DNA of 64,000 nucleotides from a virus. The notes beneath the pieces were generated by a model, which saw only the letters and a program-made list of their open reading frames with translations, was not told the DNA's origin and made no database searches. Both the position numbers and the translations under genes were made by a program. This document shows positions 2,763 through 30,662 of the stretch, one piece after another (positions within the stretch are counted from its first letter, which is position 1; each line of letters opens with the position of its first letter). The DNA is taken from IMG/VR virus record IMGVR_UViG_3300042385_000896, positions 1 to 64,000 of that record. One strand, given 5' to 3'.

Positions 2763-3704
2763 ATGAAAAAAATATGTCTTGATTTATCGGAAGCAAAGGC
2801 AATCGGGGATACCCTTTGCTCAACCCCCGTACTTAGAAAACTACATCAATCATATGACTCAAAAGTTACCGTTGTAACTAATTTCCCTGAATTATTTAAA
2901 AATCATCCTTTGGTTGAAAAGGTTTACCACTCGAATTCGGTTAATTTAGATTTCATTAAATCTAATTTTATAACTCATAATTCATTTTATGAGAATGGAC
3001 AAAAAAATAACCGAGGAGTTGAGTTTAAACATAACCGTATTGACATTAGACAATATCACGCAATTAAACTTGGTTTTATGTTAACCAAAGATGAAATGAA
3101 TATTGATTATATTCCTGATGAGTATGAACCAATTAAAGGATTACCTGAGAAATATGTACTAATACACCCCGTCCAAAATTGGCCAAGCAGAACTTGGGAT
3201 GCGGTTAAATGGATGGAATTAAGTAAAAAATTAAACGACCATAATATTAGTGTAATTTCAGTTGGTAAAGACTCAAGTGAGGTTGGATTTTTTAATGTTA
3301 AAAAACCAATTTTTAATTTTGAGATTAAAAATGGCCTTAATTTAATGAATAAAACCACATTAAGTCAATCGTGGCATTTAATTAATAAATCATTGTGTTT
3401 TGTCACAATGGATTCAGGATTACTTCATTTAGCAGGAACAACTGATTCAGAAATCATTCAATTAGGAAGTTCTATCAATTACGAATTTAGAGCCCCATAT
3501 CGAAATAATTCACAAGAATATAAATACCATTATGTTGGTGGTGGTTGTAGTCTGTTTTGTGGTTCAGATATAAAATACGGAGTTAAAGAATGGGGGGATA
3601 TCCAAGGGGTACCACCTTTAATTAATTGTTTAGAAAATAAACCAACATTTGAGTGCCATCCCTCAGTTGAGCAAGTGTTTAATAAAATTTTAGAAATTAT
3701 ATGA
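2763..3704 (+). CDS. GT9-family glycosyltransferase (heptosyltransferase-like)
   Basis: This 313-residue protein has the GT-B layout of family GT9 (ADP-heptose transferases). The N-terminal half opens KAIGDTLCSTPVLRKL, the usual acceptor-side motif (GDxLxxTPxLRxL). The C-terminal half has HPVQNWPSRTWD, the counterpart of the GT9 nucleotide-sugar site, and VTMDSGLLHLA, matching the conserved D-S/T-G-x-x-H motif. A Cys-bearing tail (GGCSLFCG, FECHPS) recalls the metal-finger tail of TibC-type enzymes. It is the first gene of the plus-strand glycosyltransferase operon and its 3' end overlaps the next start by 4 bases. The sugar donor is not determinable from sequence. Confidence 0.82.
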   Translation: MKKICLDLSEAKAIGDTLCSTPVLRKLHQSYDSKVTVVTNFPELFKNHPLVEKVYHSNSVNLDFIKSNFITHNSFYENGQKNNRGVEFKHNRIDIRQYHAIKLGFMLTKDEMNIDYIPDEYEPIKGLPEKYVLIHPVQNWPSRTWDAVKWMELSKKLNDHNISVISVGKDSSEVGFFNVKKPIFNFEIKNGLNLMNKTTLSQSWHLINKSLCFVTMDSGLLHLAGTTDSEIIQLGSSINYEFRAPYRNNSQEYKYHYVGGGCSLFCGSDIKYGVKEWGDIQGVPPLINCLENKPTFECHPSVEQVFNKILEII

Positions 3705-4726: not shown

Positions 4727-4727
4727 T

Positions 4728-5681
4728 ATGAATAATATTTTTACAGTAACTAATATTGAAGAGAATGGTATAATCCATTTTGACTTTAATGGTGATGACA
4801 TAAAAGAAATATACGAGGTCTCAATTATTGATAACAATACGGGATTAACCGTACATAAATCAAACATGGGGTTACGAAAAGGAACCAATTGGTGGATATC
4901 GACTGGTGAATCTAACGCAAAAAGACTTAGAAACATAACCTTATCCATTATGTATGGTGACCTACAATATTCTCAGGAATTAAAACTATTTGGTCAAAAT
5001 AGATTTTTAGTAATTAACTCAAAACAAGTTAAATTATCTCACTTGGGGGATGATTTATTTCCAATTGTTACTGAGATTTTTTACGATAAAGTATATGAGA
5101 GGGATTTTGTTAGACTTAGCATCAATGATACGGTTGTTGATATTGGGGCGAATTACGGAGTATTCTCATTATACTCACAAATGTTTAACCCATCTAACGT
5201 TTATGCGGTAGAACCTCTTAAGGCTACATTTAAAAGTATGAAAAAGAATCTTTCCGAACACGGAGTAACTTGTATTAATAAGGCGGTTAGTAATGAGAAT
5301 GGGTTTGAGAAATTTATGATAACCGAAGTTAATGGTAATAATTTTTCACAAAAAAACGAAAGTGGGTTTCACCCATCAACAGTGATTGGTGAAGAGATTG
5401 TTGAGACTATCACTATTAACCAATTAATTTCTGACTACGATATCGACAGAATTGATTTTTTAAAAGTTGATTGTGAAGGTGGTGAGTTGGATTTATTCCG
5501 AACAATTGATAAAGAATATTTACAAAATAATATTGGTAAAATTGCAATGGAATACCACTCAAAAGAAATTTACGATGAAGTTTTAGATATACTAAAATCA
5601 AACAACTTTATAATTGAGGATACTTTAGGGTCTAACGATATCGGATTAATTTACGCATATAATATTAATTTAATAAAATAA
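4728..5681 (+). CDS. FkbM-family methyltransferase with N-terminal beta-domain
   Basis: The SAM-binding motif VDIGANYGVFSLY is near residue 138, followed by YAVEPLKATF and by the FkbM signature FLKVDCEGGELDLF near residue 245. FkbM-type enzymes methylate sugar hydroxyls, among other substrates. The first 95 residues are an additional beta-rich domain (motifs DNNTGLTVHKS and NWWIS) resembling the accessory domains of the neighbouring glycosyltransferases. The stop overlaps the next ATG by 1 base. O-methylation of a glycan built by this operon is the simplest role. Confidence 0.82.
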   Translation: MNNIFTVTNIEENGIIHFDFNGDDIKEIYEVSIIDNNTGLTVHKSNMGLRKGTNWWISTGESNAKRLRNITLSIMYGDLQYSQELKLFGQNRFLVINSKQVKLSHLGDDLFPIVTEIFYDKVYERDFVRLSINDTVVDIGANYGVFSLYSQMFNPSNVYAVEPLKATFKSMKKNLSEHGVTCINKAVSNENGFEKFMITEVNGNNFSQKNESGFHPSTVIGEEIVETITINQLISDYDIDRIDFLKVDCEGGELDLFRTIDKEYLQNNIGKIAMEYHSKEIYDEVLDILKSNNFIIEDTLGSNDIGLIYAYNINLIK

Positions 5682-8368
5682 TGAAAAAGAAAAAAATATT
5701 AGTTGTTTCTCCTCATTTAAGTACTGGAGGAGCGCCTCAAGTCACATTAAATAAAATACAATTAATTAACAATGAATATGAAATCAAATGTGTTGAGTAC
5801 GCATTTGTTGCTTGGACGTTTGTCGTTCAAAGAAATCAAATACAAGAATTACTTGGTGATAATTTCCATTCTTTAGGGGAAGATAAAAACGAGTTAATTA
5901 GAATTGTTAATGAGTTTAAACCTGATGTTGTTAGTATGGAAGAATTTCCTGAATTTTTCATGGATGATTCTGTCACAAAAGAATTATATAGGGAAGATAG
6001 GGAATACACAATATTTGAAACCACACATGATTCTAGTTTTTCTGTTTCACATAAAAGATGGTTCCCCGATAAATTTATATTCGTAAGTGCGTATAACGCA
6101 TTTAGATATTCTATATATGATATTCCGTATGACATTGTTGAATACCCTGTAGACTATAAAGAAAAAAATAAAAAACAAAACCAAGAATTATTAGATTTAG
6201 ACCCAACATATAAACATGTTTTAAATGTTGGATTGTTCACGGCAAGAAAAAATCAATCCTATATTTTTGACATCGCACATAAATTAAAGGATTATAAAAT
6301 AAAATTTCATTTTTTGGGTAATCAGGCCGAAAACTTCCAATCATATTGGGGTCCGTTGATTAAAAATAAACCTGATAACTGCGTTGTTTGGGGAGAAAGA
6401 AAAGACGTACAATCATTTATTGAAGCGTCGGACTTATTCTTGTTTCCTTCAAAAGGTGACAGAAACAATAAAGAATTAAACCCAATCGCCTTAAAAGAGG
6501 CTTTGGAGTATAGAATCCCAATGATGATGTATAACTTGGATGTTTATTGTGGAAAATACGATAAGTACGAAAATATAACATTTTTAACAGGAGATATTAA
6601 TCATGATACATCAAAATTACTATCATTATTAAATCCTTATAAAGAAAAATATGATAATAATGAGTTAGTTATTGTTGGTACTTATCCGAATACTAAATCA
6701 CGAGAAAAATTAACTATCGAATGTATTAAGTCTGTTAAAAAATTAGGTCGAAAAGTAATGTTGGTTTCTCATTATCCAGTGTCGAACGATATTCAAAAAA
6801 TGGTCGACTATTATATTTTTGATTCAAATAACCCAACAACAGAACATTCTTATTATACTAAGTTTTATAATTATAAATCAGAGTTTGATGTTGAGATTAA
6901 CATTAACGGATTAAAAGATACTAACCAATCATTACCTGTTTTAACTAATTTAATTAATGGGTTTAAATCCGCAAAAGATTTTAATTTTAATAAAGTATTT
7001 TACATAACCTACGATGTTATATTACATCATGATGATATTGAATATGTTAATCAATCATTTAAATTGTTGGATGAAAAAGACGCATTCTTATGTACTTTAC
7101 CTACGGCGTTTAATGTTGGTATTGAGACTACCGCAATGACGTTTAAAACTGATTTCTTTTTAGAAAAATTTTCACATATAATAACTAAAGAAATTTACAA
7201 ATCAGAATGTAGAATAAATAATTGTCAAAACTTCTTAGAGGATTTCTTTTATAAGAAATTAATTCACGAACCAACAGTTAATGTCATTACAAATGATAGT
7301 CATACATTCTTAATTAATTCAGGTAAAGGAGTCTCATCTAATTCAGAATACTATTCTATATTACCAATTATTAATAACGAGAATAAATGGGTGTTTTATT
7401 TCTACACATATAATATTGATGACAGAACAGTTAGTGTTGAGATTAATAAAAATAACGAAACCATTTATTCTAAATCATTTAATATTCTACAAACCCGAGA
7501 ATTCTTAAAAGAAATTGACTACGATGGAGTTCCAATAGAGATTAAGTTAACCTTTTTTGAGGGTGGAGTTCAATATAAATCAGAATCTTACATATTAAAT
7601 AATGAAACAATAATTAGTTACAAAAATAATGGATGGTTTAAGTATAAACGATTACCTAAAATTAAATTAGTTCATTTACAAACAACAAATAACGATGAGA
7701 GAGAAATCTTATCAAGAGAGTCGTTACAACAAGTATCAAAATACGGTATTGAATATGTTTTACATACAAATGAACTATACAAATCTATACCTCCATCACA
7801 TAATTGTGTTAGACCACAATGTGTGTCTATGGAACTTTTTGATGAAGAGACAACAAACCGACTAGGTACTGCACTAACACCAGCACATTACGGATGTTTT
7901 GAATCATTTAAAAATGGTATTATATCTGAATTCGATAAAGATTTGGATTTCTTAATTGTTTGTGAGGGAGACTGTTTAATTGAGGTCCCTATTGAGGAAT
8001 TCATTGATAAAGTTAAACAAGTGTGTGATACCGTTATCGAATCGGACATACAATATTTTTCATTTGGGGACACTAAAACATTAGACTTCGCTTGGCATCA
8101 ATCAAATGTGATTAAAGAAATCCCGAACCAAGACTTGTTGTTTATTACTGATAAAATTATTGGGTTACAATGTATTATGTTCCCAAGAAAAACTAGAGAA
8201 TTCTTATACGAACAATTACGTAATCATAAGTGGGATTGTGCTGACTCATATTTCAACCTTATTTTTATCGAACATGGGTTAAATATGGGTATTCTAAAAA
8301 ACAGAATTACAACTCAAGCTGATGGAGTGTCATTAATCGATAAGGAATTTAAAACATTTATTAAGTAA
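5681..8368 (+). CDS. Three-domain glycosyltransferase (GT4 + GT2-like + GT25-like)
   Basis: This 895-residue protein appears to carry three catalytic domains. Residues 1 to about 320 are GT4-like, with an N-terminal VVSPHLSTGGAPQVTLNK and NPIALKEALEY as the E-x7-E region. Residues about 327-565 begin LVIVGTYPNTKSREKL and are closely related to the separate proteins encoded at 8368 and 10010. A beta-rich segment follows at about 566-650. Residues about 656-895 resemble GT25/LPS-type transferases (LTPAHYGCFESFKNGI, then LIVCEGDCLIE in place of the usual EDD). Such multi-domain enzymes often assemble an oligosaccharide on one acceptor. Start and stop overlap both neighbours by 1 base. Confidence 0.75.
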   Translation: MKKKKILVVSPHLSTGGAPQVTLNKIQLINNEYEIKCVEYAFVAWTFVVQRNQIQELLGDNFHSLGEDKNELIRIVNEFKPDVVSMEEFPEFFMDDSVTKELYREDREYTIFETTHDSSFSVSHKRWFPDKFIFVSAYNAFRYSIYDIPYDIVEYPVDYKEKNKKQNQELLDLDPTYKHVLNVGLFTARKNQSYIFDIAHKLKDYKIKFHFLGNQAENFQSYWGPLIKNKPDNCVVWGERKDVQSFIEASDLFLFPSKGDRNNKELNPIALKEALEYRIPMMMYNLDVYCGKYDKYENITFLTGDINHDTSKLLSLLNPYKEKYDNNELVIVGTYPNTKSREKLTIECIKSVKKLGRKVMLVSHYPVSNDIQKMVDYYIFDSNNPTTEHSYYTKFYNYKSEFDVEININGLKDTNQSLPVLTNLINGFKSAKDFNFNKVFYITYDVILHHDDIEYVNQSFKLLDEKDAFLCTLPTAFNVGIETTAMTFKTDFFLEKFSHIITKEIYKSECRINNCQNFLEDFFYKKLIHEPTVNVITNDSHTFLINSGKGVSSNSEYYSILPIINNENKWVFYFYTYNIDDRTVSVEINKNNETIYSKSFNILQTREFLKEIDYDGVPIEIKLTFFEGGVQYKSESYILNNETIISYKNNGWFKYKRLPKIKLVHLQTTNNDEREILSRESLQQVSKYGIEYVLHTNELYKSIPPSHNCVRPQCVSMELFDEETTNRLGTALTPAHYGCFESFKNGIISEFDKDLDFLIVCEGDCLIEVPIEEFIDKVKQVCDTVIESDIQYFSFGDTKTLDFAWHQSNVIKEIPNQDLLFITDKIIGLQCIMFPRKTREFLYEQLRNHKWDCADSYFNLIFIEHGLNMGILKNRITTQADGVSLIDKEFKTFIK

Positions 8369-9345
8369 TGAAAAAATTAATAGTTATCGGAGCATACCCG
8401 AATACACCAAAAAAAGAACAAGTTCTAATTAATGAAATAAACTCATTAAAAAATAGTGGTTTTGATTTTATGTTAGTTAGTCATTACCCTGTATCAATTG
8501 AATTACAATCAATGGTTGAGTATTATATTTACGATAAAAACCAAACTTTAACACCATTAGATAAATCACCGTATTATTGGTTTAAAACCGACTCTTTTTT
8601 CTTAAGGGTTAATAACTCAAGACATTCGTTACCGATTTGTCAAAATATGTTTAACGCATTTAAATTTGCCGATATAAAAAAATACGATTTTGTTTATTTT
8701 ATTGAGAATGATAATTTATTCTCGGAAAATGATGTTACAAAATTAAATCAATTGGTTGATACTATGGTTGAGGAAAGAAAGAAATGTATTTTCTTTAAAC
8801 CTGAGGGGTATAGAGATAGTGGGTCTTATGTTTATGAGACACAACTATTCGGGATTACACCTTCCTACTTTAATGAAATTTTAAAATTACCTGTCACAGA
8901 AAATGAGTGGTACGAACACTTAATGCCGTTAACATTAGAGTTGGCGTTTTTCCAAAAATTACAACATTATGAGCATGAGTTTTTAATAATCAACGAACAC
9001 TCAAGTGAGTATTTTAATGAAAGTGATATTAATTTATTTAGGGTTGAGAATTTTATGATTGAGGTATTACATAACGTTAAAGACCCATCAACACCAATAT
9101 TATATTGTCACAGTGGTGTCAGAAATTCATATGAATATCGAGTCGTTGTTAAAATGAATAATAAAGTCATTACAGATAAAATTGTTTATCCTACACATTG
9201 GTTTTATATACCACTATCTTTAAGAGACGATAAATTAATAATTGAGGTGTACGAAAATGATACAATAGAATATGTGAAAACATTAGTATTAAATGAGGAT
9301 AGTTTAGAACAAATAAAAGAAAAAGGATTAATTGAATTTAATTAA
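8368..9345 (+). CDS. Glycosyltransferase-like protein, paralogue of the middle domain of the upstream gene
   Basis: The N-terminus LIVIGAYPNTPKKEQ and the segment MLVSHYPVSIELQSMVEYY match domain two of the 895-residue protein (GTYPNTKSREK; MLVSHYPVSNDIQKMVDYY). YFIENDNLFSENDV probably supplies the acidic metal-binding motif of a GT-A fold. Residues about 235-325 are the beta-rich accessory domain. The protein is 325 residues, typical for a single GT domain plus accessory module. It starts within the stop of the previous gene and ends one base before the next ATG. Donor and acceptor unknown. Confidence 0.65.
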   Translation: MKKLIVIGAYPNTPKKEQVLINEINSLKNSGFDFMLVSHYPVSIELQSMVEYYIYDKNQTLTPLDKSPYYWFKTDSFFLRVNNSRHSLPICQNMFNAFKFADIKKYDFVYFIENDNLFSENDVTKLNQLVDTMVEERKKCIFFKPEGYRDSGSYVYETQLFGITPSYFNEILKLPVTENEWYEHLMPLTLELAFFQKLQHYEHEFLIINEHSSEYFNESDINLFRVENFMIEVLHNVKDPSTPILYCHSGVRNSYEYRVVVKMNNKVITDKIVYPTHWFYIPLSLRDDKLIIEVYENDTIEYVKTLVLNEDSLEQIKEKGLIEFN

Positions 9346-10008
9346 ATGAAAAGAGATATTAGATTAGTTAGTATATTTAATAAACCAATGGTGGTATTTG
9401 ATGGCCCTGAATGTATTTCAGATGACATAGTAAAATACAATAATTTTTGGGAATTTAAGATTGTTAACAAATGGTTACATTTTTTTCCTAAAAACGGTCT
9501 TTATCTGGATATTGGGGCTAACATAGGTAATCACTGCGTACAATTAAAACATTATTTACCAAATATATCTATTTGGGCTTTTGAGCCGTATTTTGAAAAT
9601 TATGAATTACTTAGATTAAACACTAAACAATTGGATAACGTACATTGTTTTTGTTTAGGTGTTGGTAGTTGTAATTCCATGGTACATTTCGACAATGGTC
9701 ATGACTCTAATAGTGGTGTTGTTAAAGTAGTTGAGTATAGTAATAACACTAATTTAGTAATTTCTTTAGATACATTTAATTTACCCGAACCCGTTAAGTT
9801 TATTAAAATTGATGTTGAGGGATTTGAAAAATCTTCGTTTGAAGGAATGGTTAATTTATTAGAAAAAGATAAACCGATGATTTGGTTAGAAGATATTGGT
9901 GGGGACGCGGTCACGTTTTTACTAATGAAAGATTATATCATTGTCGATTCTCAGGAAGAGAGTAGAGATTATTTAATGGTTCACATAACCAACAAACACA
10001 AATATTAA
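9346..10008 (+). CDS. FkbM-family methyltransferase (short form)
   Basis: This 220-residue protein has the SAM site LYLDIGANIGNHCV near residue 52, AFEPYFENYELL as the acidic motif II, and the FkbM signature FIKIDVEGFEKSSFEG near residue 152. It lacks the N-terminal beta-domain of the other FkbM protein in this operon (4728-5681), so the two probably act on different positions or substrates. It lies directly between two paralogous glycosyltransferase-like genes with gaps of 0 and 1 bases. Confidence 0.85.
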   Translation: MKRDIRLVSIFNKPMVVFDGPECISDDIVKYNNFWEFKIVNKWLHFFPKNGLYLDIGANIGNHCVQLKHYLPNISIWAFEPYFENYELLRLNTKQLDNVHCFCLGVGSCNSMVHFDNGHDSNSGVVKVVEYSNNTNLVISLDTFNLPEPVKFIKIDVEGFEKSSFEGMVNLLEKDKPMIWLEDIGGDAVTFLLMKDYIIVDSQEESRDYLMVHITNKHKY

Positions 10009-10009
10009 A

Positions 10010-10999
10010 ATGAAATCAATTTGTTTAGTCGCGTCTCACACACCAACAAAAGAAAAACAAGATGCGTTAAGAAATTTAATTAGAAAATTAAAAAAAGAAA
10101 AAAAGGACATTTTTCTAATAACCCATAGTTTTACCCCATCTGACATTATATCTGATGTTAACTATCATTTTTATGATAGTGAAAACGAATTTGTCGACGA
10201 AGACAATTTAAAAGGATGGGGTCACATTGAACTTTTTGGAAATACCTTGGTAAGTAAAGATGTTATAAAACAATCAACATCAATTTTACCTTGTACTAGA
10301 AATCTATTCTTTGGGATGTTTATTTCTAAAATGTTGGGGTATAATGTATTACATTATATTGAATACGATTCGGAAATAACCGACATTAAAGTTATTGATA
10401 ATAATGACGTTTTACTTAAAGATTATGATTGTGTTTATTATTTAACAAAACGAGGGTTCGACGGGGATTCAGACCATTTATTTGGCCCATACTCAGCATA
10501 TAACCTTAATTCATATACGTATGATGAATTGTTGTGGAATCGAGAAAAAATTTTACACGAGTTTTCAAAAGAAGATAATAATCTTTTAGTTGAGAAGGTA
10601 TCAGAATCTTTATTAATTAATAATAAAAATTTTATATCATTTGATAAGTCAGAATTATTAAACCAAGGGCTAAATGCCGATACCATTAAAAGTAATACAG
10701 ATTCTCCTGTAGTGTTTAAGACATTATTTTATGATGACAATAAACTACATGTGTATTGTAATAATAGTAACCCAAATAAAATTAACGAAAATATTGACAT
10801 TATCATTAACGATAACACCTATTTAAATATTCCTATGATAAAACCAAACACGTTTCATTTTAGAACTATTGGTGAATTAAAGGACATTAAAAAAGTAAAA
10901 TTATATTCAAATAATATATTAATATTTGAATATCAATTAGATGATGATGAAGTTATTGAAAAATTTAAAAAAAATAACAAATTAATTAAAAATAATTAA
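10010..10999 (+). CDS. Divergent glycosyltransferase-like protein with beta accessory domain
   Basis: The N-terminus (SICLVASHTPTKEKQDAL, FLITHSFTPSDIISDVNYHFYD) aligns with the proteins starting at 8368 and with domain two of the protein starting at 5681, making it a third, more divergent paralogue. LHYIEYDSEITDI could be the acidic metal site. Residues about 235-329 are the beta-rich accessory domain seen in its neighbours. No other domain is recognisable. Catalytic activity is less certain than for the two paralogues. Confidence 0.55.
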   Translation: MKSICLVASHTPTKEKQDALRNLIRKLKKEKKDIFLITHSFTPSDIISDVNYHFYDSENEFVDEDNLKGWGHIELFGNTLVSKDVIKQSTSILPCTRNLFFGMFISKMLGYNVLHYIEYDSEITDIKVIDNNDVLLKDYDCVYYLTKRGFDGDSDHLFGPYSAYNLNSYTYDELLWNREKILHEFSKEDNNLLVEKVSESLLINNKNFISFDKSELLNQGLNADTIKSNTDSPVVFKTLFYDDNKLHVYCNNSNPNKINENIDIIINDNTYLNIPMIKPNTFHFRTIGELKDIKKVKLYSNNILIFEYQLDDDEVIEKFKKNNKLIKNN

Positions 11000-11000
11000 T

Positions 11001-13103
11001 ATGAATATAACACAAGTAACACCAGGAATTATTTCCATACCCCCAAATGGATGGGGTGCCGTTGAAAAGATAATTTTTAACTACAATAACCATTTAAACT
11101 CATTAGGTCATATTTCTGATATAAAGTATTTAAATGGGGTTGACATTAACAATACCGATATTGTTCACATTCATATCGCAAATTTAGCTATTGAAGCGTA
11201 TGAACGAGGTATACCTTACATTTTTTCATTACACGACCATCATGTTGTGTATAATGGTAAAGATTCATTTAACTATCAACAAAATTTAGAAGCAATCCAA
11301 AAGTCTGTTATTTCATTTTGTCATGCGGAGTTCTTAGTGGATTACTTTAGTGAGACTGATAAATTATTTTATTTATCTCACGGAGTTGATACTAAATTCT
11401 TTAAAGTAGACCAACCTTATCGAACGGAACATAAATTATTGTGTTTAGCGAACAACGGTATTGGAGGAGACTCGTCTTACGATAGAAAAGGATTTAGATA
11501 TGCTATTGAAGCGGCTAAGTCATTGGGGTTACCAATAACAATTGCTGGCCCTGAAAATAACCATAACTTTTTTGAACACCACAAAGACTTATTAGAATAT
11601 GATAAGTTAACACTATTATTAACAAATCCAAATGAGGATGAGATATTAGAATTATACAAATCGCATTCAATTTTTCTACACCCATCTTGTTTAGAGGCGG
11701 GTCATCCTAATTTAACATTACTTGAAGCAATTTCTTGTGGAATACCAATTGTTGGTACTTATAGTGGTACCCAAAAAATTAAAGGTATGATTGTTTGTGA
11801 ACTTAACACTAATTCTGTCATAAACGGAATACAAGATATTATTAATAATTATAATTTTTATGTGTCCCAAACACTGAAGAATAGAGAAAAATTTGATTGG
11901 TTGGTAATTTGTGAGCGTATGTTAAAAATGTATGAAGTAACTAAATTAATTAAAAAAGAATATAACTCAAATGATACAAAAGAATTATTAGTTGATAATA
12001 TTGAAAATACAGAAAAATTTGTACCTGTTGTTGAAGAAGATATTGATTGTGTTATACATTTCGTCAATAATCCTTTTTTAGAAATTAAAGGTTCTGGCGT
12101 AAAGTCATACAAAGTACAATTTTATGATAAAGAAAATTTATACTACTCAACCGAGTTAAAACCAAATATGTGGACTAAACTATCTAGACAGTATTATACT
12201 GATTGGGATGTTAAAGTTCTTGATGGTGAGGAATTAATTTATGAATATAAACCAAATTTTATTAACAAAAGAGTATTCATTTCATTCGATTCTCGTTCTC
12301 TTGGGGATAGTATTGCTTGGATACCATATGTTTTAGAATTTAAGAAGAAACACAATTGTCATGTTATTGTTTCAACATTTTGGAATAAGTTATTTGAAAA
12401 ATCTTACTCTGAGATTGAGTTTGTTTCACCAGGAAGTACGGTTCATGATTTAATTGGTATGTATACAATTGGGTGGTTCTATGATACAAATAAAGAACCC
12501 GAATTACCAAATACAATCCCATTACAAAAAGCAATAACAAATATTATTGGTTTAGAGTTTAACGAAATTAAACCAAACATTGATTTTATTCCATCAGAAC
12601 GACCATTTACGGAAAAGTATATTACGATTGCAAATGAATCAACCGCGGGAGTTAAGTATTGGAATAATCCTAATGGGTGGAGGGAACTAATTGATTACTT
12701 AGTATCTAAAGGATATAGGGTCATTAATGTATCTAAAGAAAGTGACCGAATGGATGGTGTGACAAAACTAAAGGACACGTCAATTGAGAACACAATGAAT
12801 TGTATTCATCATAGTGAGTTCTTTATTGGTTTATCAAGTGGATTATCTTGGTTGACATGGGCATTAGGAAAACATGTTGTTATGATTTCTAACTTTACCG
12901 AACCTGACCATGAGTTTACTTCTAATTGCACAAGAATCACTAACCCATCAGTTTGTAACGGGTGTTGGAATAATCCAATGTTTAAATTTGATAAGGGTGA
13001 TTGGAATTGGTGTCCTGAACATAAAGGAACAGAAAGACAGTTTGAATGCCATAAATCGATAACCTCTCAAATGGTTATTGACAGAATACAACATTTATTA
13101 TAA
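11001..13103 (+). CDS. Bifunctional glycosyltransferase: GT4 domain fused to a TibC/BAHT-type O-heptosyltransferase domain
   Basis: Residues 1 to about 315 are a GT4 domain (PPNGWGAVEKIIFNYNNHL at the start, HPSCLEAGHPNLTLLEAISC as the E-x7-E region). Residues about 345-425 are a beta-domain (IHFVNNPFLEIKGSG, NMWTKLSRQYYTDWDVKV) of the type preceding autotransporter strand-loop-strand O-heptosyltransferases. Residues about 427-700 are the GT9-like catalytic domain: SLGDSIAWIPYVLEF, STFWN, KYWNNPNGWRELIDYL, FIGLSSGLSWLTWALGK. The tail has the TibC-type metal finger with Cys near 652, 655, 671 and 683 (CNGC, WNWCPEHKGTERQFEC). TibC-family enzymes O-heptosylate Ser in repeat regions of bacterial autotransporters. 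Here the obvious Ser/Thr-rich acceptors are the neighbouring giant fibres; this link is inferred. Confidence 0.85.
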   Translation: MNITQVTPGIISIPPNGWGAVEKIIFNYNNHLNSLGHISDIKYLNGVDINNTDIVHIHIANLAIEAYERGIPYIFSLHDHHVVYNGKDSFNYQQNLEAIQKSVISFCHAEFLVDYFSETDKLFYLSHGVDTKFFKVDQPYRTEHKLLCLANNGIGGDSSYDRKGFRYAIEAAKSLGLPITIAGPENNHNFFEHHKDLLEYDKLTLLLTNPNEDEILELYKSHSIFLHPSCLEAGHPNLTLLEAISCGIPIVGTYSGTQKIKGMIVCELNTNSVINGIQDIINNYNFYVSQTLKNREKFDWLVICERMLKMYEVTKLIKKEYNSNDTKELLVDNIENTEKFVPVVEEDIDCVIHFVNNPFLEIKGSGVKSYKVQFYDKENLYYSTELKPNMWTKLSRQYYTDWDVKVLDGEELIYEYKPNFINKRVFISFDSRSLGDSIAWIPYVLEFKKKHNCHVIVSTFWNKLFEKSYSEIEFVSPGSTVHDLIGMYTIGWFYDTNKEPELPNTIPLQKAITNIIGLEFNEIKPNIDFIPSERPFTEKYITIANESTAGVKYWNNPNGWRELIDYLVSKGYRVINVSKESDRMDGVTKLKDTSIENTMNCIHHSEFFIGLSSGLSWLTWALGKHVVMISNFTEPDHEFTSNCTRITNPSVCNGCWNNPMFKFDKGDWNWCPEHKGTERQFECHKSITSQMVIDRIQHLL

Positions 13104-13474
13104 TGAATATAGAAGTTTCAATTGGGGAAATAGTTGACAAATTAACTATCCTAAGAATTAAAAAAAATAATATAACAGATAAAGGTAAACTTTTTAATGT
13201 TATTACAGAATACGATTATCTATATGATGTTGTATTTAATCAATTAAAAATTGAATCAGATGATTTTTATAATCTATTATTGGTTAATGAACGTCTTTGG
13301 GATATTGAAGACCTTATTAGAGATAAAGAAAGAGATAAGGTATTTGACACCGAATTCATAGAATTAGCTCGGTCCGTTTATGTAACAAACGATAAACGAG
13401 CAGAATTAAAGAAAGAGATTAATTTAAAATATGGGTCTCTTTTTGTTGAAGAGAAGTCATACAAGGAATATTAA
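13103..13474 (+). CDS. DUF6165-like protein
   Basis: This 123-residue, highly charged, mostly helical protein has the motifs VSIGEIVDKLTILRIK, WDIEDLIRDKER and FIELARSVYVTNDKRAELKK, which match the small family DUF6165. Members are commonly located beside glycosyltransferases and have no known activity. It overlaps the preceding heptosyltransferase-type gene by 1 base and is the last gene of the operon, followed at once by a terminator. A regulatory or complex-forming role with the glycosyltransferases is a guess. Confidence 0.75.
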   Translation: MNIEVSIGEIVDKLTILRIKKNNITDKGKLFNVITEYDYLYDVVFNQLKIESDDFYNLLLVNERLWDIEDLIRDKERDKVFDTEFIELARSVYVTNDKRAELKKEINLKYGSLFVEEKSYKEY

Positions 13475-23009: not shown

Positions 23010-26000
23010 TTAGAAGACAATCCTTGTTCCTACACTTATATCCCAAGTTCCGCCTCCAATTGCTGCGTACAACTCAAGATTTGAACCTATAATTACTGTG
23101 TAGAATTTAACCGCCACCGTTGAAGCGTTTAAATCAGGTGTTGAACTATCAGTAAATGCCGTATTAGTTCCGTCCCACACTGTCATAATAATACCACTTC
23201 TCATCGCGTTTGTTCCAGAATCGTATACGTAATAATCAAATGTTGCACTTGAACCTGATGCGAATGGAAAACGACAAATTAATGTTGTTGTTGTAACACC
23301 TGTTTCTCTACATGATTGTAATGACTGATTACCTTGTTCAATAGTGTCACCTGTTATTCCTAAAGTAGTACCATCAAAGGTTAAATTAGGTTCTGATGTT
23401 ATACCACCCGCACCATCTGAAGTTAATACTTCATTATCATTACCTGATACGACAGGAGATAAACCACTTGTACCTGAAGAACCTGATGTCCCACTTGTCC
23501 CTGATGTCCCACTAGTTCCTTGCAAACCACTTGTTCCGCTCGTACCCGTAGTTCCCGAAGAACCACTTGTACCCGATGTTCCTGAAGAACCGCTTGTTCC
23601 TGATGAACCAGAACTACCTGATGTTCCGCTTGAGCCCGAACTACCCGATGTTCCTGATGAGCCACTCGTACCTGAAGTTCCGCTCGTACCCGATGTTCCT
23701 GAACTACCTGACGTACCCGATGTTCCTGAACTACCTGACGTACCCGATGTTCCTGAAGAACCACTTGTTCCTGATGTTCCACTACTTCCTGATGTACCTG
23801 CAGTTCCACTTGAACCCGATGTTCCTGAAGAACCTGAAGACCCGCTTGTTCCTGAAGAACCTGACGTTCCACTTGTACCACTAGACCCTGAACTACCTGA
23901 GGAACCACTTGAACCTGATGTTCCACTTGTACCCGCAGTTCCTGAAGAACCCGAACTACCACTAGAACCTGATGTTCCCGATGTTCCACTACTTCCGCTT
24001 GTACCCGCGGTTCCTGATGAACCCGATGTTCCACTACTCCCTGAAGTTCCTGATGAACCTGAACTACCTGATGTTCCGCTTGTACCCGCAGTTCCTGATG
24101 AACCACTTGTTCCTGAACTACCCGAAGAACCCGAAGTTCCACTACTTCCACTAGAACCTGATGAACCCGAAGAACCGCTTGACCCCGATGTTCCACTACT
24201 TCCACTTGTACCCGCAGTTCCTGAAGAACCGCTACTTCCTGAAGAACCACTTGACCCCGATGAACCGCTTGTTCCTGAACTACCCGATGTTCCACTACTT
24301 CCGCTTGTGCCTGATGTACCTGCAGTTCCTGAAGAACCGCTTGTTCCTGATGTTCCTGAAGACCCCGAACTACCACTAGAACCTGAAGACCCCGAACTAC
24401 CACTTGAACCTGAAGTTCCGCTAGTTCCTGAAGAACCACTTGACCCCGACGAACCTGAACTTCCTGACGTTCCACTAGTACCCGCAGTTCCTGAAGAGCC
24501 GCTACTACCGCTTGAACCTGAACTACCTGAAGTTCCTGATGAACCACTTGAACCTGATGAACCGCTACTACCACTTGAGCCAGACGTACCTGAAGTTCCT
24601 GATGAACCTGATGTACCTGCAGTTCCTGAAGAACCACTTGTCCCACTAGACCCTGATGAACCTGATGAGCCACTTGAACCTGAACTACCGCTAGTGCCTG
24701 ATGTACCCGAGCTACCACTTGTTCCTGACGAACCACTTGTTCCACTTGAGCCCGAACTACCTGATGAACCTGATGTTCCTGATGAGCCACTCGTACCTGA
24801 AGTTCCGCTAGTTCCTGAAGAACCTGATGAGCCACTCGTACCTGAAGAACCGCTAGTTCCTGAAGAACCTGAAGTTCCACTAGTTCCTGAAGAACCACTT
24901 GTCCCCGACGTTCCTGAACTACCCGATGTACCACTTGAACCTGAACTACCTGACGTTCCCGATGTTCCACTACTTCCACTAGAACCTGAACTACCACTAG
25001 AACCTGATGTTCCACTTGTACCTGAAGAACCGCTTGACCCTGATGTTCCACTACTTCCACTTGTACCTGCAGTACCTGAAGAACCGCTTGACCCCGATGA
25101 ACCGCTTGTCCCACTAGACCCTGATGAACCTGAACTACCACTAGAACCTGAACTTCCTGATGTACCTGAACTTCCGCTAGTACCTGATGTTCCGCTAGTC
25201 CCACTTGTACCCGCAGAACCTGAAGTTCCTGATGACCCGTTAGTTCCTGATGAACCACTTGAACCTGAAGTTCCGCTAGTTCCTGAAGAACCACTTGTCC
25301 CTGACGTACCTGAACTTCCGCTAGTTCCTGATGAACCACTTGTACCTGATGTTCCGCTAGTACCTGATGTTCCTGAAGAACCACTTGTCCCTGACGTACC
25401 TGAACTTCCGCTAGTTCCTGAAGAACCACTTGAACCTGATGACCCTGAACTTCCACTAGTTCCTGAAGTACCACTTGAACCTGAAGTTCCGCTAGTTCCT
25501 GAACTTCCGTTAGTTCCTGATGAACCACTTGTTCCTGATGAACCACTTGTTCCTGATGAACCACTTGTTCCTGATGAACCGCTTGTTCCTGAAGTACCCG
25601 AAGAACCTGACGTTCCACTTGTTCCCGATGAACCACTTGAACCCGATGTTCCTGATGAACCATTAGTTCCTGAAGTACCCGAAGAACCTGACGTTCCACT
25701 TGTTCCCGATGAACCACTTGTACCTGAACTACCGCTAGTTCCTGATGAACCTGAACTTCCTGACGTTCCGCTTGTACCCGCAGTACCTGACGAACCACTA
25801 GACCCTGAACTTCCTGATGAACCTGAACTTCCTGATGTTCCACTTGTTCCGCTAGACCCTGAAGAACCGCTTGACCCCGATGTTCCGCTAGTTCCTGATG
25901 AACCACTAGTTCCTGACGAACCTGAAGTACCACTTGAACCTGATGTTCCTGAAGAACCCGATGTTCCTGAAGAACCATCTGTTCCGCTAGTTCCTGACGA

Positions 26001-29000
26001 ACCACTTGAACCTGATGTCCCCGATGAACCTGAACTACCGCTAGTGCCTGATGTACCCGAGCTACCACTTGTTCCTGACGAACCACTTGAACCTGATGAC
26101 CCGCTTGTACCTGAAGACCCACTTGTTCCACTAGAACCTGATGTCCCACTTGACCCTGAAGTTCCTGATGAGCCACTTGTTCCGCTTGAACCAGATGTAC
26201 CACTTGTTCCTGATGAACCATTTACACCACTAATACCACTTGAGCCTGAAGTTCCGCTACTACCATCCGTTCCTGATGAACCATCTGTTCCACTTGTACC
26301 TGAACTACCGTCAGTTCCGCTTGTTCCTGAAGTTCCACTTGACCCATCTGTTCCTGATGAACCATCTGTTCCACTAGTACCTGATGTTCCTGATGAACCA
26401 TCTGTTCCACTAGTACCTGATGTTCCTGATGAGCCATCCGTACCTGAAGTACCACTAGTTCCTGAAGAACCATCTGTACCACTTGTTCCGCTAGTTCCTG
26501 AAGAACCATCAGTTCCGCTAGTTCCTGAAGAACCATCAGTTCCACTTGTACCTGAACTACCATCAACACCACTTAATCCACTTGAACCTGATGTTCCTGA
26601 AGTACCTGAACTACCGCTAGTTCCTGATGAACCTGAACTTCCACTTGTTCCCGATGAACCATCAGTACCTGAAGTACCACTAGTTCCCGAAGAACCATCT
26701 ATTCCTGAAGTTCCTGAAGAACCATCAACACCACTTAATCCGCTTGAACCCGATGTTCCTGAAGAACCATCAGTTCCGCTTGTTCCTGATGAACCATCGG
26801 TTCCACTAGTACCTGATGTTCCTGAAGAGCCGTCTGTACCTGAAGTTCCTGAAGAACCGTCTGTTCCTGATGTTCCTGAAGAACCGTCTGTTCCTGAAGT
26901 TCCACTTGTTCCTGAAGAACCATCGGTTCCACTTGTTCCTGAAGAACCATCGGTTCCACTAGTACCTGATGTTCCTGAAGAGCCGTCTGTACCTGAAGTA
27001 CCACTACTTCCTGAAGAACCATCAGTTCCCGAACTTCCGCTAGTTCCTGAAGAGCCGTCTGTACCTGATGTACCGCTAGTTCCTGAAGAGCCGTCTGTAC
27101 CTGATGTACCACTAGTTCCTGAAGAACCATCAGTTCCTGAACTCCCACTAGTCCCTGAAGAACCATCTGTTCCGCTTGTTCCTGAAGAACCATCTGTTCC
27201 TGAAGTACCTGAACTTCCACTTGTTCCTGAAGAACCATCTGTTCCGCTTGTTCCTGAAGAACCGTCAACACCACTTAATCCACTTGAACCTGATGTTCCA
27301 CTACTCCCATTAGTTCCACTTGTTCCTGAACTACCATCTGTTCCTGAAGTTCCACTAGTACCTGAAGAGCCATCTGTTCCCGAAGTTCCTGAAGAACCAT
27401 CTGTTCCTGATGAACCATCTGTTCCGCTAGTTCCTGATGAACCATCTGTTCCACTAGTACCTGAAGTACCTGATGAACCATCTGTTCCGCTAGTGCCTGA
27501 AGAACCGTCAGTTCCGCTTGTTCCTGAACTACCATCCGTACCGCTTGTTCCTGAACTACCATCAGTCCCACTTGTTCCTGACGAACCACTTGTTCCTGAT
27601 GAACCATCTGTTCCTGAAGAACCACTGGTCCCCGATGAACCGTTAGTACCGCTTGTTCCTGATGAACCATTCACACCACTAATACCACTTGAACCTGACG
27701 AGCCATCTGTCCCGCTAGTTCCTGAAGAACCGTCAGTACCACTTGTTCCTGAACTTCCTGAAGAACCGCTAGTCCCTGAAGAACCATCCGTTCCACTTGT
27801 TCCTGAAGAACCATCTGTACCTGAACTTCCACTAGTTCCTGAACTTCCACTAGTTCCTGAAGAACCATCTGTTCCTGAACTACCGTCAGTTCCGCTAGTT
27901 CCTGAAGAACCATCAACACCACTTAATCCACTTGAACCCGAGGTTCCTGAACTACCATCTGTCCCACTTGTACCTGATGTACCGCTAGTTCCTGAAGAGC
28001 CGTCTGTACCTGATGTACCACTAGTTCCTGAAGAACCATCAGTTCCTGAACTCCCACTAGTCCCTGAAGAACCGTCAGTTCCGCTTGTACCTGAAGAACC
28101 ATCAACACCGCTTAATCCGCTTGACCCCGATGTTCCTGAAGAACCATCAGTTCCGCTAGTTCCTGAACTACCGTCAGTACCCGAACTTCCACTTGTTCCC
28201 GATGACCCATCTGTTCCTGAAGTACCTGATGAACCATCTGTCCCTGAAGTACCTGAAGAACCATCTGTTCCACTAGTACCTGAACTACCATCTGTTCCAC
28301 TTGTTCCTGAGGAACCGCCTGAACCTGAAGAACCGCTTGTACCAGAACTTCCACTTGTACCTGAAGAACCATCAGTACCCGAACTTCCACTTGTACCTGA
28401 AGAACCATCAGTTCCGCTTGTTCCTGAAGAACCATCAGTACCGCTAGTTCCTGAAGAACCACTTGACCCCGATGTTCCTGAAGTACCTGAACTACCGTCA
28501 GTACCGCTAGTTCCTGATGAACCATCTGTTCCTGAAGTACCTGAACTTCCACTTGTTCCTGAAGAACCATCTGTTCCTGAAGTACCTGAAGAACCATCAA
28601 CACCACTTAATCCACTTGAACCTGATGTTCCACTTGTTCCTGAAGAACCATCTGTTCCGCTTGTTCCACTAGTACCTGAAGAACCATCAGTTCCGCTTGT
28701 TCCTGAAGAACCATCAGTACCGCTAGTTCCTGAAGAACCGTCTGTTCCGCTTGTTCCTGAAGAACCGTCAACACCACTTAATCCACTTGAACCTGATGTT
28801 CCACTTGTTCCCGATGACCCATCTGTTCCGCTAGTTCCACTTGTTCCTGATGAACCATCTGTTCCGCTAGTTCCTGAAGAACCGTTAGTACCACTAGTTC
28901 CTGATGAACCATCTGTTCCTGAACTACCGCTTGTCCCTGATGAACCATCTGTTCCGCTTGTTCCTGAAGAACCTGACGTACCATTAGTTCCGTTAACACC

Positions 29001-30662
29001 ACTAATTCCACTTGAACCCGAGGTACCACTTGAACCATCGGTACCACTTGTTCCTGAACTACCGTCAGTTCCACTTGTTCCTGAAGAACCATCAGTTCCT
29101 GAAGTACCTGAACTCCCACTTGTTCCTGAAGAACCGCTAGTCCCTGAAGAACCATCCGTTCCACTTGTTCCTGAAGAACCATCTGTTCCTGAACTTCCGC
29201 TTGTTCCTGAACTACCGTCAGTTCCGCTAGTTCCTGATGAACCATCTGTTCCTGAACTACCGTCAGTTCCACTTGTTCCTGAAGAACCATCAACACCACT
29301 TAATCCGCTTGAACCCGAAGTGCCTGAACTTCCGTCAGTTCCACTTGTTCCTGATGAACCATCTGTTCCTGAACTTCCGCTAGTTCCTGATGAACCATCT
29401 GTTCCTGAAGTTCCTGAACTACCGTCAGTTCCGCTTGTACCTGAACTACCATCTGTACCACTTGAGCCCGATGTTCCTGAAGAACCATCTGTTCCACTAG
29501 TTCCTGATGAACCATCTGTTCCTGAACTACCGTCAGTACCGCTTGTTCCTGAAGAACCGTCAATACCACTAGTTCCTGAACTACCGTCAGTTCCACTTGT
29601 ACCTGAACTACCGTCAGTTCCACTTGTACCTGAACTACCATTGGTACCACTTGTTCCGCTTGAGCCCGATGTTCCTGAAGAACCATCTGTTCCTGATGTT
29701 CCTGAAGACCCACTATTTCCTGACGTACCTGAACTACCATCGGTCCCACTAATACCTGAAGTCCCTGAAGAACCATTAACACCACTTATACCACTAGACC
29801 CTGAAGTTCCCGAAGAACCATCAGCACCTGAAGTTCCCGAACTACCGTCAGTTCCTGAAGTTCCTGAAGAACCGTCAATCCCACTTGTTCCTGAAGAACC
29901 TGACGTTCCTGAAGAACCGTCAGTCCCACTTGTTCCTGAACTACCATCAGTACCTGAAGTACCTGATGAACCATCAGTACCCGAACTTCCACTAGTCCCT
30001 GAAGAGCCGTTAGTCCCTGAAGAGCCGTTAGTCCCTGAAGAGCCGTTAGTTCCTGAAGAACCACTACTACCAGAAGAACCACTACTACCTGACGTACCCG
30101 ATGTTCCTGATGAACCACTTTCACCCGAAGAACCCGATGAACCCGATGAACCGTTAGTTCCTGAAGAACCGTTAGTTCCTGAAGAACCGTTAGTTCCTGA
30201 AGAACCACTACTACCAGAAGAACCACTTGAACCTGAACTTCCTGATGAACCACTTGAACCTGAACTTCCTGATGAACCACTTGTTCCACTAGAACCTGAT
30301 ATTCCTGAAGTACCACTTGAACCTGATGTTCCTTTAGTTCCTGAACTACCCGAAGAACCGCTACTTCCTGATGTTCCACTACTTCCTGAAGAACCACTTA
30401 AACCTGAAGTACCATTTTGACCACTTGAACCTGACGAACCATTAACACCACTTGTTCCTGATGAACCATTAACACCACTTGTTCCTGCAGTACCTGAAGT
30501 ACCAGCAAGGGATAGAGCATCCGCAATTTGTTGGATACTTGCTTTATATGATGAACCTGCGGGGTTTTGTGATGTATCACCCGTAATGACAATGTGTACA
30601 ATGTCATCTGGAGATACTATCGGAGCTTGGGTTCTGTCGGTCAGTCTTTGATAATTCGGCAT
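23010..30662 (-). CDS. Giant collagen-like Gly-Ser/Thr/Asp repeat fibre protein (2,550 residues)
   Basis: Residues 1-54 form a head (MPNYQRLTDRTQAPIVSPDD, SSYKASIQQIADALSLAG) typical of phage fibre N-termini. Residues about 55-2395 are Gly-X-Y triplets in two zones. Up to about residue 1480 a nine-residue unit GTDGSSGTS dominates, with markers GLSGVDG and GISGVNG. Beyond that the repeat becomes almost Asp-free GTS/GSS like the neighbouring 3,117-residue fibre. The last 155 residues form a globular tip (CRETGVTTTTLICRFPF, FDYYVYDSGTNAMRSGIIM, GGGTWDISVGTRIVF). A terminator follows the gene. Role as a long virion fibre is inferred from architecture. Confidence 0.87.
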   Translation of the reverse strand: MPNYQRLTDRTQAPIVSPDDIVHIVITGDTSQNPAGSSYKASIQQIADALSLAGTSGTAGTSGVNGSSGTSGVNGSSGSSGQNGTSGLSGSSGSSGTSGSSGSSGSSGTKGTSGSSGTSGISGSSGTSGSSGSSGSSGSSGSSGSSGSSGSSGSSGTNGSSGTNGSSGTNGSSGSSGSSGESGSSGTSGTSGSSGSSGSSGSSGTNGSSGTNGSSGTNGSSGTSGSSGTDGSSGTSGTDGSSGTSGTDGSSGTSGSSGTSGIDGSSGTSGTDGSSGTSGADGSSGTSGSSGISGVNGSSGTSGISGTDGSSGTSGNSGSSGTSGTDGSSGTSGSSGTSGTNGSSGTSGTDGSSGTSGTDGSSGTSGIDGSSGTSGTDGSSGTDGSSGTSGTDGSSGTSGSSGTDGSSGTSGTDGSSGTSGTDGSSGTSGSSGTDGSSGTSGTDGSSGTSGSSGLSGVDGSSGTSGTDGSSGTDGSSGTSGTDGSSGTSGSSGTDGSSGTSGTDGSSGTSGSSGTSGSSGTSGTDGSSGTSGTDGSSGTSGTDGSSGTSGSSGISGVNGTNGTSGSSGTSGTDGSSGTSGSSGTDGSSGTSGTNGSSGTSGTDGSSGTSGTSGTDGSSGTSGTSGSSGLSGVDGSSGTSGTDGSSGTSGTDGSSGTSGTDGSSGTSGTSGTDGSSGTSGTSGSSGLSGVDGSSGTSGTDGSSGTSGSSGTSGTDGSSGTSGTDGSSGTSGTSGSSGSSGTSGTDGSSGTSGTDGSSGTSGSSGTDGSSGTSGSSGTSGSSGSGGSSGTSGTDGSSGTSGTDGSSGTSGTDGSSGTSGTDGSSGTSGSSGTDGSSGTSGTDGSSGTSGSSGLSGVDGSSGTSGTDGSSGTSGSSGTDGSSGTSGTSGTDGSSGTSGTSGTSGTDGSSGTSGSSGLSGVDGSSGTSGTDGSSGTDGSSGTSGSSGTSGSSGTDGSSGTSGTDGSSGTSGSSGSSGTSGTDGSSGTSGTDGSSGSSGISGVNGSSGTSGTNGSSGTSGSSGTDGSSGTSGSSGTSGTDGSSGTSGTDGSSGTSGTDGSSGTSGTDGSSGTSGTSGTDGSSGTSGTDGSSGTDGSSGTSGTDGSSGTSGTSGTDGSSGTSGTNGSSGTSGSSGLSGVDGSSGTSGTDGSSGTSGSSGTSGTDGSSGTSGTDGSSGTSGSSGTDGSSGTSGTSGTDGSSGTSGTSGTDGSSGTSGSSGTDGSSGSSGTSGTDGSSGTSGTSGTDGSSGTSGTDGSSGTSGTSGTDGSSGTSGTDGSSGTSGTDGSSGTSGTSGTDGSSGTSGTDGSSGTSGSSGLSGVDGSSGTSGIDGSSGTSGTSGTDGSSGTSGSSGSSGTSGSSGTSGTSGSSGLSGVDGSSGTSGTDGSSGTSGTDGSSGTSGTSGTDGSSGTSGTSGTDGSSGTSGTSGTDGSSGTSGTSGTDGSSGTDGSSGTSGTSGTDGSSGTSGTDGSSGTDGSSGTSGSSGISGVNGSSGTSGTSGSSGTSGSSGTSGSSGTSGSSGTSGSSGTSGSSGSSGSSGTSGSSGTSGTSGSSGSSGTSGSSGSSGTSGTDGSSGTSGSSGTSGSSGTSGSSGTSGSSGTSGTSGSSGSSGSSGTSGTSGSSGSSGSSGSSGSSGTAGTSGTSGSSGSSGTSGSSGTSGSSGTSGTSGSSGTSGTNGSSGTSGSSGSSGTSGTSGSSGTSGTSGSSGTSGSSGTSGSSGTSGSSGTNGSSGTSGTSGSSGTSGTSGSSGSSGSSGSSGTSGSSGTSGTSGSSGTSGTSGTSGTSGSSGTSGSSGTSGTSGSSGTSGTSGSSGSSGTNGSSGTSGSAGTSGTSGTSGTSGSSGTSGSSGSSGSSGSSGSSGTSGSSGSSGSSGTAGTSGSSGTSGSSGSSGTSGTSGSSGSSGSSGSSGTSGTSGSSGSSGTSGSSGTSGTSGSSGTSGTSGSSGTSGSSGTSGSSGSSGTSGTSGTSGSSGTSGSSGSSGSSGTSGSSGTSGSSGTSGTSGSSGSSGSSGSSGSSGTSGSSGTAGTSGSSGTSGTSGSSGSSGSSGSSGSSGTSGSSGSSGSSGSSGTAGTSGTSGSSGSSGSSGSSGTSGTSGSSGSSGSSGSSGSSGSSGTSGTSGSSGTAGTSGTSGSSGTSGSSGTSGSSGSSGSSGSSGSSGTAGTSGSSGTSGSSGSSGSSGSSGSSGTSGSSGSSGTSGSSGTAGTSGTSGSSGSSGTSGSSGTSGSSGTAGTSGSSGTSGTSGSSGSSGSSGTAGTSGTSGSSGSSGSSGSSGTSGTSGSSGTSGSSGSSGTSGSSGTAGTSGSSGTSGTSGSSGTSGTSGSSGTSGTSGSSGTSGTSGTSGTSGSSGTSGSSGSSGTSGSSGSSGTSGSSGTSGTSGSSGTTGTSGTSGLQGTSGTSGTSGTSGSSGTSGLSPVVSGNDNEVLTSDGAGGITSEPNLTFDGTTLGITGDTIEQGNQSLQSCRETGVTTTTLICRFPFASGSSATFDYYVYDSGTNAMRSGIIMTVWDGTNTAFTDSSTPDLNASTVAVKFYTVIIGSNLELYAAIGGGTWDISVGTRIVF
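23470..30510 (-). repeat. 27-bp (GTDGSSGTS) and 9-bp (GTS/GSS) coding repeats in two zones
   Basis: The Asp-marked 27-bp unit occupies roughly 26220-30060, while 23470-26220 encodes plain GTS/GSS triplets. The switch lies near 26220, next to a GISGVNGSSG marker. Confidence 0.88.

Follow-up and report, generated by a model that had tools for sequence, protein, structure and literature searches.

Can a phage encode the means to glycosylate its own fibres? The question is raised by bases 1-64000 of the 89,660-base viral record IMGVR_UViG_3300042385_000896 (this whole 64,000-base stretch is referred to as the window), where an operon of sugar-modifying enzymes, one of which carries a TibC-type O-glycosyltransferase domain, lies between genes for long fibres with repeats of Gly, Ser and Thr. 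The best explanation of the arrangement, and a moderately probable one, is a pathway of the phage's own for O-glycosylation and methylation of these fibres; a sequence-only reading of the window had proposed that the phage glycosylates them. The genes on which this turns, with glycosyltransferase abbreviated to GT and amino acids to aa, are:

11001-13103, plus strand: GT4 enzyme fused to a TibC-type O-glycosyltransferase domain (C-terminal half, ~12108-13094); PF00534 37.5 bits, TIGR04414 285.3 bits
13506-22859, minus strand: fibre 1, a giant proline-free collagen-like fibre of 3117 aa, with 852 Gly-X-Y triplets in three arrays, a non-repeat N-terminus, two inserts and a C-terminus
23010-30662, minus strand: fibre 2, a giant proline-free collagen-like fibre of 2550 aa, with 783 uninterrupted triplets
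1-868, minus strand: third Gly-Ser-Thr fibre gene, with a non-repeat N-terminus and then 71 Gly-X-Y triplets in view; cut by the contig start

The placing of the enzyme in the TibC family was borne out. Its C-terminal half matches TIGR04414, the model of the BAHT enzymes TibC and AAH, well above the curated cut-off of 200 bits and over positions 29-373 of the 374 in the model, and the TibC entries in the PDB (4rap and 4rb4) match it at 174 and 176 bits in an alignment of 319 residues. Residues are numbered as in TibC, with their roles taken from excerpts of PMC4358343, and conservation was counted over a set of 71 phage enzymes obtained by clustering at 90% identity. The window-type enzyme has the catalytic base Asp110, as do 70 of the 71 (the other has a gap), and it also retains the phosphate-binding Lys230 (71/71) and Trp305 (70/71). 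It keeps Thr226 too, which is found in 66/71, the remaining five having Ser. The four iron-finger cysteines (339, 342, 358 and 370) are each found in all 71 and are a predicted iron site in the window enzyme, which also has Phe368. At the position of Pro300 in TibC, 54/71 phage enzymes including that of the window have Ser, as does AAH, and AAH is described in the same excerpts as accepting both heptose isomers. In two other records (G035 and G036) TibC and an FkbM methyltransferase share one open frame. DNA-modifying glycosyltransferases have been described in phages (excerpts of PMC12619734), but hypermodification of phage DNA is a very improbable role for these enzymes given the TibC-type active site and iron finger, and no base-modification gene was recognised with Pfam among the 39 window proteins scanned.

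The composition claimed for the fibres was also confirmed, with Gly at every third residue and Ser or Thr at nearly all X and Y places (1605/1704 in fibre 1 and 1389/1566 in fibre 2). Pro occurs in none of the triplets of either. The unbroken arrays of fibre 1 comprise 684, 132 and 36 triplets, the longest Gly-X-Y run in 200 shuffles of its residues was 10, and the Pfam Collagen model scores 1076 bits on it. The rise of a collagen triple helix is 0.286 nm per residue, and computed as such a helix the repeats would extend for ~730 nm in fibre 1 and ~670 nm in fibre 2; the triple helix is a prediction here, and there is no Pro to support the fold. The gene at 1-868 confirms that fibres flank the operon on both sides. 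Over 20,993 bases, a stretch that takes in the arrays of 684 and 132 triplets, the window has the same sequence as nine further IMG/VR records; this speaks against an artefact of assembly, unless all ten carry the same error.

The fibres are putative virion components. In a PHROG search the N-terminus of fibre 1 matched a family of unknown function (best 6e-8) and one of its inserts also gave a match (1.6e-4), the N-terminus of fibre 2 was weakly like a virion structural protein (E 0.005), and nothing matched the C-terminus of fibre 1 or 2 or the N-terminus of the third fibre. The N-terminal part of fibre 1 is also weakly like parts of annotated minor tail proteins of Microbacterium phages (E 2e-3). 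It matched actinophage proteins, but in two records, a Microbacterium phage and a Microcystis phage, it is the C-terminus of the annotated protein that is matched, and the match therefore says little on attachment. Open reading frames (ORFs) of 2067 and 2358 aa run antisense to the two large fibres, and these are a trap for annotation.

Co-occurrence of enzyme and fibre in other phages had been put forward in advance as a check, and the result was positive. Viral records were picked by fibre DNA alone (80 of 120 stretches, from 78 distinct contigs), and the 47 records of at least 30 kilobases (kb) were scanned. The 44 controls comprised 28 of 80 records drawn by an arbitrary 15-base word (~29 kb or more) and 16 of 80 capsid-gene records (at least 40 kb). 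TIGR04414 was found in 21/47 fibre-sampled records, in 20 of them above the cut-off, and in 3/44 controls (Fisher p 3.6e-5), namely 1/28 word-drawn records and 2/16 capsid relatives; with the comparison restricted to the 28 word-drawn records, p was 1.4e-4. The fibre pattern itself occurs in 3/44 controls, all of them capsid relatives, and these include both capsid relatives with TibC, so that within this small set TibC is present in 2/3 fibre-positive records against 0/13 (p 0.025). Among records of at least 90 kb the counts are 11/15 against 1/12 (p 0.0014), the lone control positive (G086) being itself fibre-positive. All of these counts and tests are uncorrected for phage phylogeny. The DNA pattern used is strict and misses real fibres, with 0 matches in Microcystis phage Mel-JY01 despite a run of 149 triplets there, and some 'fibre-negative' records may hold fibres. 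The gene association that the sequence-only reading implied is thus observed in other phages, and it is from this association only that we infer the fibres to be the acceptor.

The main rival explanation is that the operon modifies surface glycans of the host (the O-chain of lipopolysaccharide, LPS, or the capsule) and thereby blocks superinfection. In a T4-like pelagimyophage host-recognition cluster, glycosyltransferases beside fibre genes have been read as modifiers of the host surface (excerpts of PMC7029224), several of the family names matched here are those of LPS or exopolysaccharide enzymes, and the window has a second glycan gene set at 38479-49564. The FkbM counts bear on this alternative. 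FkbM genes were found in 21/47 fibre records and 8/44 controls, and among FkbM-positive records TibC was present in 15/21 fibre-sampled records against 0/7 fibre-negative controls (p 0.0014; G086, fibre-positive with both, was left out). Because it holds within this group, the link between TibC and fibre is more than a property of glycan-rich phages alone; the TibC-type enzyme tracks one fibre type even here, and the tested members of its family modify proteins. Modification of host glycans is therefore considered unlikely.

Enzyme and fibre also lie close together. The TibC scan gave 209 viral relatives, of which the best 80 were used, so this local survey leans to close relatives, and removal of nine window-identical records (L002-L010), with no other de-duplication, left 71 loci. 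A Ser/Thr-rich Gly-X-Y run of at least 8 triplets was present in 42/71 of these against 1/80 capsid-gene loci, the latter being shorter on average (12.5 versus 15.9 kb). Addition of 24 loci and clustering at 90% gave 68 loci, 57 of which have at least 5 kb downstream, and runs were here counted from 6 triplets. A fibre run lies downstream, at ~10 kb at most, in 35 of the 57, on the opposite strand in 32 and on the same strand in three, and upstream runs were seen in 11 clustered loci. In the TibC-positive fibre records, a fibre was near TibC in 14/21 (stretch of up to ~10 kb on each side); here L014 stands in for L410, both being one contig. Same-strand fibres, which occur near L404-L406, L408, L409 and L414, are all outside the 51-row tree group that holds the window enzyme, and the pairing therefore survives rearrangement.

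Such layouts are relevant to the view that there is no functional link, in which both genes belong to the variable part of large phage genomes that serves host interaction, and shared ancestry keeps them together. The uncorrected records would allow this, as would the small size of the lineage-matched capsid set and the 51 of 94 tree rows that fall in the group of the window enzyme. However, same-strand and convergent layouts are found in different branches, and the association persists in both the ≥90-kb and the FkbM-positive strata, which makes co-travel by shared ancestry alone improbable.

The search for bacterial loci required a short peptide of the window enzyme, and 18 of the 19 loci from bacterial genomes that it gave have no such fibre in the stretch examined. 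The exception, L432 (10001-11294 of CALMEI010000048.1, labelled uncultured Polaromonas), encodes a phage-type TibC and, ~38 bases farther downstream and on the other strand, the fibre repeat; it groups with the phage enzymes in the tree and looks, from its sequence, like a phage contig in a bacterial bin.

The phage enzymes are related to TibC, but most of them lack two of its features. TibC has a beta-hairpin thumb whose hydrophobic tip (Phe265-Val266) closes a dodecamer, and point mutants of the tip drop to dimers and cannot modify TibA (excerpts of PMC4358343). Positions 265 and 266 are gapped in the window-type enzyme and in 61/71 phage enzymes, and Phe265 is present in 0/71. The segment 254-284, which has 31 residues in TibC, is shortened to 20-23 residues in 54/71 and to 27-28 in seven, with 30-35 in the other ten; in 18/19 loci from bacterial genomes it has 30-31. 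Arg286, which contacts the adenine of the donor (excerpts of PMC4358343), is replaced by Thr in the window-type enzyme; only 10/71 phage enzymes have the Arg, versus 17/19 bacterial-genome loci. In the tree, TibC and 18/19 bacterial-genome enzymes form one clade (support 100/99), with the window enzyme and the other sampled phage enzymes outside it, and 51/94 rows, the window enzyme among them, make up one group (support 89/97), though the bootstrap is not fully settled and the deep branches are weak. Two phage enzymes, L402 and L423, adjoin the bacterial clade and have a 31-residue thumb segment which is without the hydrophobic tip.

As the thumb is absent, a TibC-like dodecamer is unlikely for the phage enzyme, and with Arg286 mostly lost and the sampled phage enzymes outside the bacterial clade, neither dodecamer nor heptose should be assumed; heptose, implied by the sequence-only reading in its term O-heptosyltransferase, was thus not established. 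On the same grounds the sampled phage enzymes are classed, by sequence, as viral relatives of BAHT, and that of the window is not filed as an autotransporter heptosyltransferase. It differs from TibC and AAH further in its fusion to GT4 and in its neighbours, which are collagen-like fibres.

Characterised BAHT substrates are beta-helical autotransporters (excerpts of PMC4358343), which would favour O-glycosylation of some other protein, either a different virion protein or a beta-helical host adhesin. The window offers adhesin-like neighbours, such as a concanavalin-like protein and Thr-Pro-rich proteins, but no autotransporter or AIDA-type family was detected with Pfam among its 39 scanned proteins, and the pairing of genes is with collagen-like fibres; another protein as the target is distinctly unlikely.

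The TibC-type enzyme is one of nine plus-strand ORFs that lie in a tight run at 2763-13474, each starting a few bases from the preceding stop. The others are:

2763-3704, plus strand: GT9-family glycosyltransferase (PF01075 55 bits; TIGR04414 merely 32 bits, below the cut-off)
3701-4726, plus strand: GT2-like protein with a C-terminal extension (PF00535 20.7 bits, under the 23.3 cut-off)
4728-5681, plus strand: predicted beta domain (~aa 5-86) and FkbM methyltransferase (TIGR01444 98.5 bits, cut-off 37.7)
5681-8368, plus strand: three-part enzyme with GT4 (PF00534 40.7 bits), a middle unit resembling 8368-9345 and a C-terminus that may be GT25-like
8368-9345, plus strand: GT-A-fold protein with a C-terminal beta domain, probable glycosyltransferase (AlphaFold2 predicted local distance difference test, pLDDT, 91.9)
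9346-10008, plus strand: FkbM methyltransferase (TIGR01444 68.5 bits, cut-off 37.7)
10010-10999, plus strand: paralogue of 8368-9345 in its N-terminal domain (profile of the 8368-9345 N-terminus, 2.3e-26)
13103-13474, plus strand: DUF6165 protein (PF19662 33.4 bits, cut-off 27)

The predicted model of 4728-5681 (mean pLDDT 76.4) has a methyltransferase fold (top Z 15.8). No Pfam or NCBIfam family matched 8368-9345 above cut-off, and it is its model that points to a glycosyltransferase, as it matches GT-A enzymes (Foldseek/VIA) such as glycogenin (Z 14.1, 182 residues aligned, root-mean-square deviation 3.5 Å). Human COLGALT1 was among the Foldseek matches (TMq 0.38), which is uninformative because many GT-A enzymes match likewise. 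Profile comparison shows that the middle unit of 5681-8368 resembles 8368-9345. PF01755 (GT25) was found in 6/18 relatives of 5681-8368 at E<=1 (best 0.0015) and is absent from the window's own copy; a GT25-like, that is, collagen-galactosyltransferase-like, C-terminus is only weakly supported.

A GT-A-like N-terminal unit is common to 5681-8368, 8368-9345 and 10010-10999, and relatives of it are present in other TibC loci; the first two proteins also share the C-terminal beta domain, and in a profile-profile comparison of the operon beta domains this pair alone was convincing. A TibC-like N-terminal beta-barrel common to several of the operon proteins was considered and not upheld, the TibC-barrel profile being weak against 4728-5681 (independent E-value 0.04); the same profile scores 8e-15 on one ORF of L407 that is without the TibC catalytic part. 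In the predicted models the beta domain is N-terminal in 4728-5681 and C-terminal in 8368-9345, and the fold-search lists are filled by catalytic domains. The DUF6165 gene lies directly 3' of the TibC fusion, and homologues of it occur in 19/69 TibC loci.

If the operon acts on the fibres, the TibC-type domain of 11001-13103 would move a sugar from a nucleotide donor to the hydroxyls of Ser, and perhaps Thr, in the Gly-Ser-Ser and Gly-Thr-Ser repeats. Lengthening of the glycan would then fall to the GT4 domain of the same protein, together with the GT9, GT2-like, GT-A and possibly GT25-like enzymes, and the FkbM enzymes would O-methylate sugars of the glycan as caps. With the ring-closing thumb gone, the enzyme probably acts along the linear fibre as a dimer or other small assembly and not as a dodecameric ring, and this different assembly would suit a linear fibre as opposed to the beta-helix bound by TibC. 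The donor and the benefit to the phage we also infer: the dense glycan coat would stabilise a proline-free triple helix hundreds of nm long and shield the fibre. Stiffness, resistance to proteases and antigenic masking are the benefits that the sequence-only reading had predicted.

Several observations weigh against this. No TibC was seen in 26/47 fibre records, four of which are at least 90 kb, and the control record G065 and LR756504 each have TibC without a match to the fibre pattern. Similarly, 22/57 clustered loci have no downstream fibre, and 7/21 TibC-positive fibre records have no fibre run near TibC (~10 kb each side). Fibre and sugar genes may merely share a host-interaction island, with counts that are uncorrected for phylogeny. 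The thumb mutants of TibC fail on TibA, so that a phage enzyme without the thumb has to act in another way or may serve another function; TibC's own substrate is moreover a beta-helix and not a collagen-like chain (excerpts of PMC4358343).

The phage that carries this locus is a T4-like tailed phage, since the window encodes both of the following:

61736-63607: T4-like major capsid protein Gp23 (247.6 bits)
45998-46735: PhoH

The nearest relative of the capsid protein is from one uncultured phage (46% identity over about half of the protein length), and the nearest named relatives, also over about half of the length, are those of Microcystis phage Mel-JY01 (42%) and Flavobacterium phage immuto (41%). 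The latter has no match to the fibre pattern and is not among the TibC matches. In the window, the second glycan gene set (38479-49564) contains GT2 enzymes, a DegT-like fragment, a methyltransferase and a hexapeptide acetyltransferase, mixed with dUTPase and PhoH. A small nucleotidyltransferase at 39701-40159 could supply a sugar donor; as a clue to the sugar it was rejected, as its scores, 69.8 bits for the heptose adenylyltransferase domain and 69.2 bits for glycerol-3-phosphate cytidylyltransferase, are nearly equal and both under cut-off. Thr-Pro repeats (TPTPTP) occur in the minus-strand neighbours 2077-2670, 32196-32693 and 32690-35695 and are a possible further target of O-glycosylation, and the concanavalin-like, adhesin-like protein mentioned above is at 31104-32138.

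Both parts of the system also occur in two named phages. Mel-JY01 (PP395634.1, L426) has a 190-kb genome and its host is written as Microcystis elabens. Its TibC domain sits in a coding sequence of ~1227 residues annotated as FkbM only, and its Gly-X-Y runs, of 149, 21, 21 and 11 triplets, are on the plus strand at the start of the record. Minus-strand hypothetical proteins are annotated over this fibre (1-2298), and annotation of the antisense strand may be masking fibres of this type elsewhere. The 735-kb metagenomic phage LR756501 has a full-length GT4-TibC homologue (43%) and 1132 matches to the fibre pattern. A wider proposal, which is tentative and falls somewhat short of an even chance, is that there is a virus-specific form of O-glycosylation, extending from T4-like to 735-kb huge phages, in which proline-free collagen-like fibres hundreds of nm long are coated by TibC-type enzymes that have lost the thumb and, for the most part, the Arg that contacts adenine. 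GT4 is a frequent fusion partner of these enzymes and FkbM an occasional one, and the triple helix would owe its stability to the glycan in place of (hydroxy)proline.

What is new here is the combination of TibC-type enzymes with phage fibres, as glycosylation of phage virions, glycosylated collagen-like proteins and a viral collagen glucosyltransferase are already known. BclA is a bacterial spore protein and its repeats hold proline, in which it differs from the window fibres. It is like them a Gly-X-Y repeat protein in a prokaryotic setting, and is described as a glycosylated collagen-like protein of Bacillus spores (excerpts of PMC8968730), as the window fibres putatively are glycosylated. 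The mycobacteriophages Che8, Corndog and Myrna encode glycosyltransferases and carry glycans on capsid and tail tube (Freeman et al. 2023, via excerpts of PMC12619734 and PMC12363180), so that, as proposed here from genes alone, the phage's own transferases sugar-coat its own virion; their targets are subunits of capsid and tail tube, whereas here long fibres are paired with a TibC-type enzyme. In mimivirus, the lysyl hydroxylase/glucosyltransferase L230 acts on hydroxylysine of mimivirus collagen (excerpts of PMC9614988), and this too is a virus-encoded glycosyltransferase for a virus-encoded collagen-like protein. That virus is a giant virus of amoebae and modifies hydroxylysine, whereas this is a phage with Ser/Thr as the candidate sites and enzymes of another family, save for the weak GT25-like domain. 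Collagen-like sequences in phage genomes are shared with prophages of E. coli O157:H7, which encode such proteins (excerpts of PMC3368898), and bacteriophage collagens have been described as only ~18 residues (excerpts of PMC8968730). In the literature, no phage TibC enzyme or glycosylated phage collagen was found by title among the matches listed, a full-text search joining TibC, bacteriophage and heptosyltransferase gave two papers, by title on Laribacter and on E. coli islands, and 'glycosylated tail fiber' together with phage gave none.

If the proposal is true, it would provide a function for phage glycosyltransferase genes of a kind that the papers cited here take for modifiers of the host surface or of DNA, and would show by what means collagen can be stable without proline. 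A glycan layer would also enter models of phage adsorption. The thumbless enzymes are a natural experiment on the need of TibC for its ring, and in Mel-JY01 there is a named phage with both parts.
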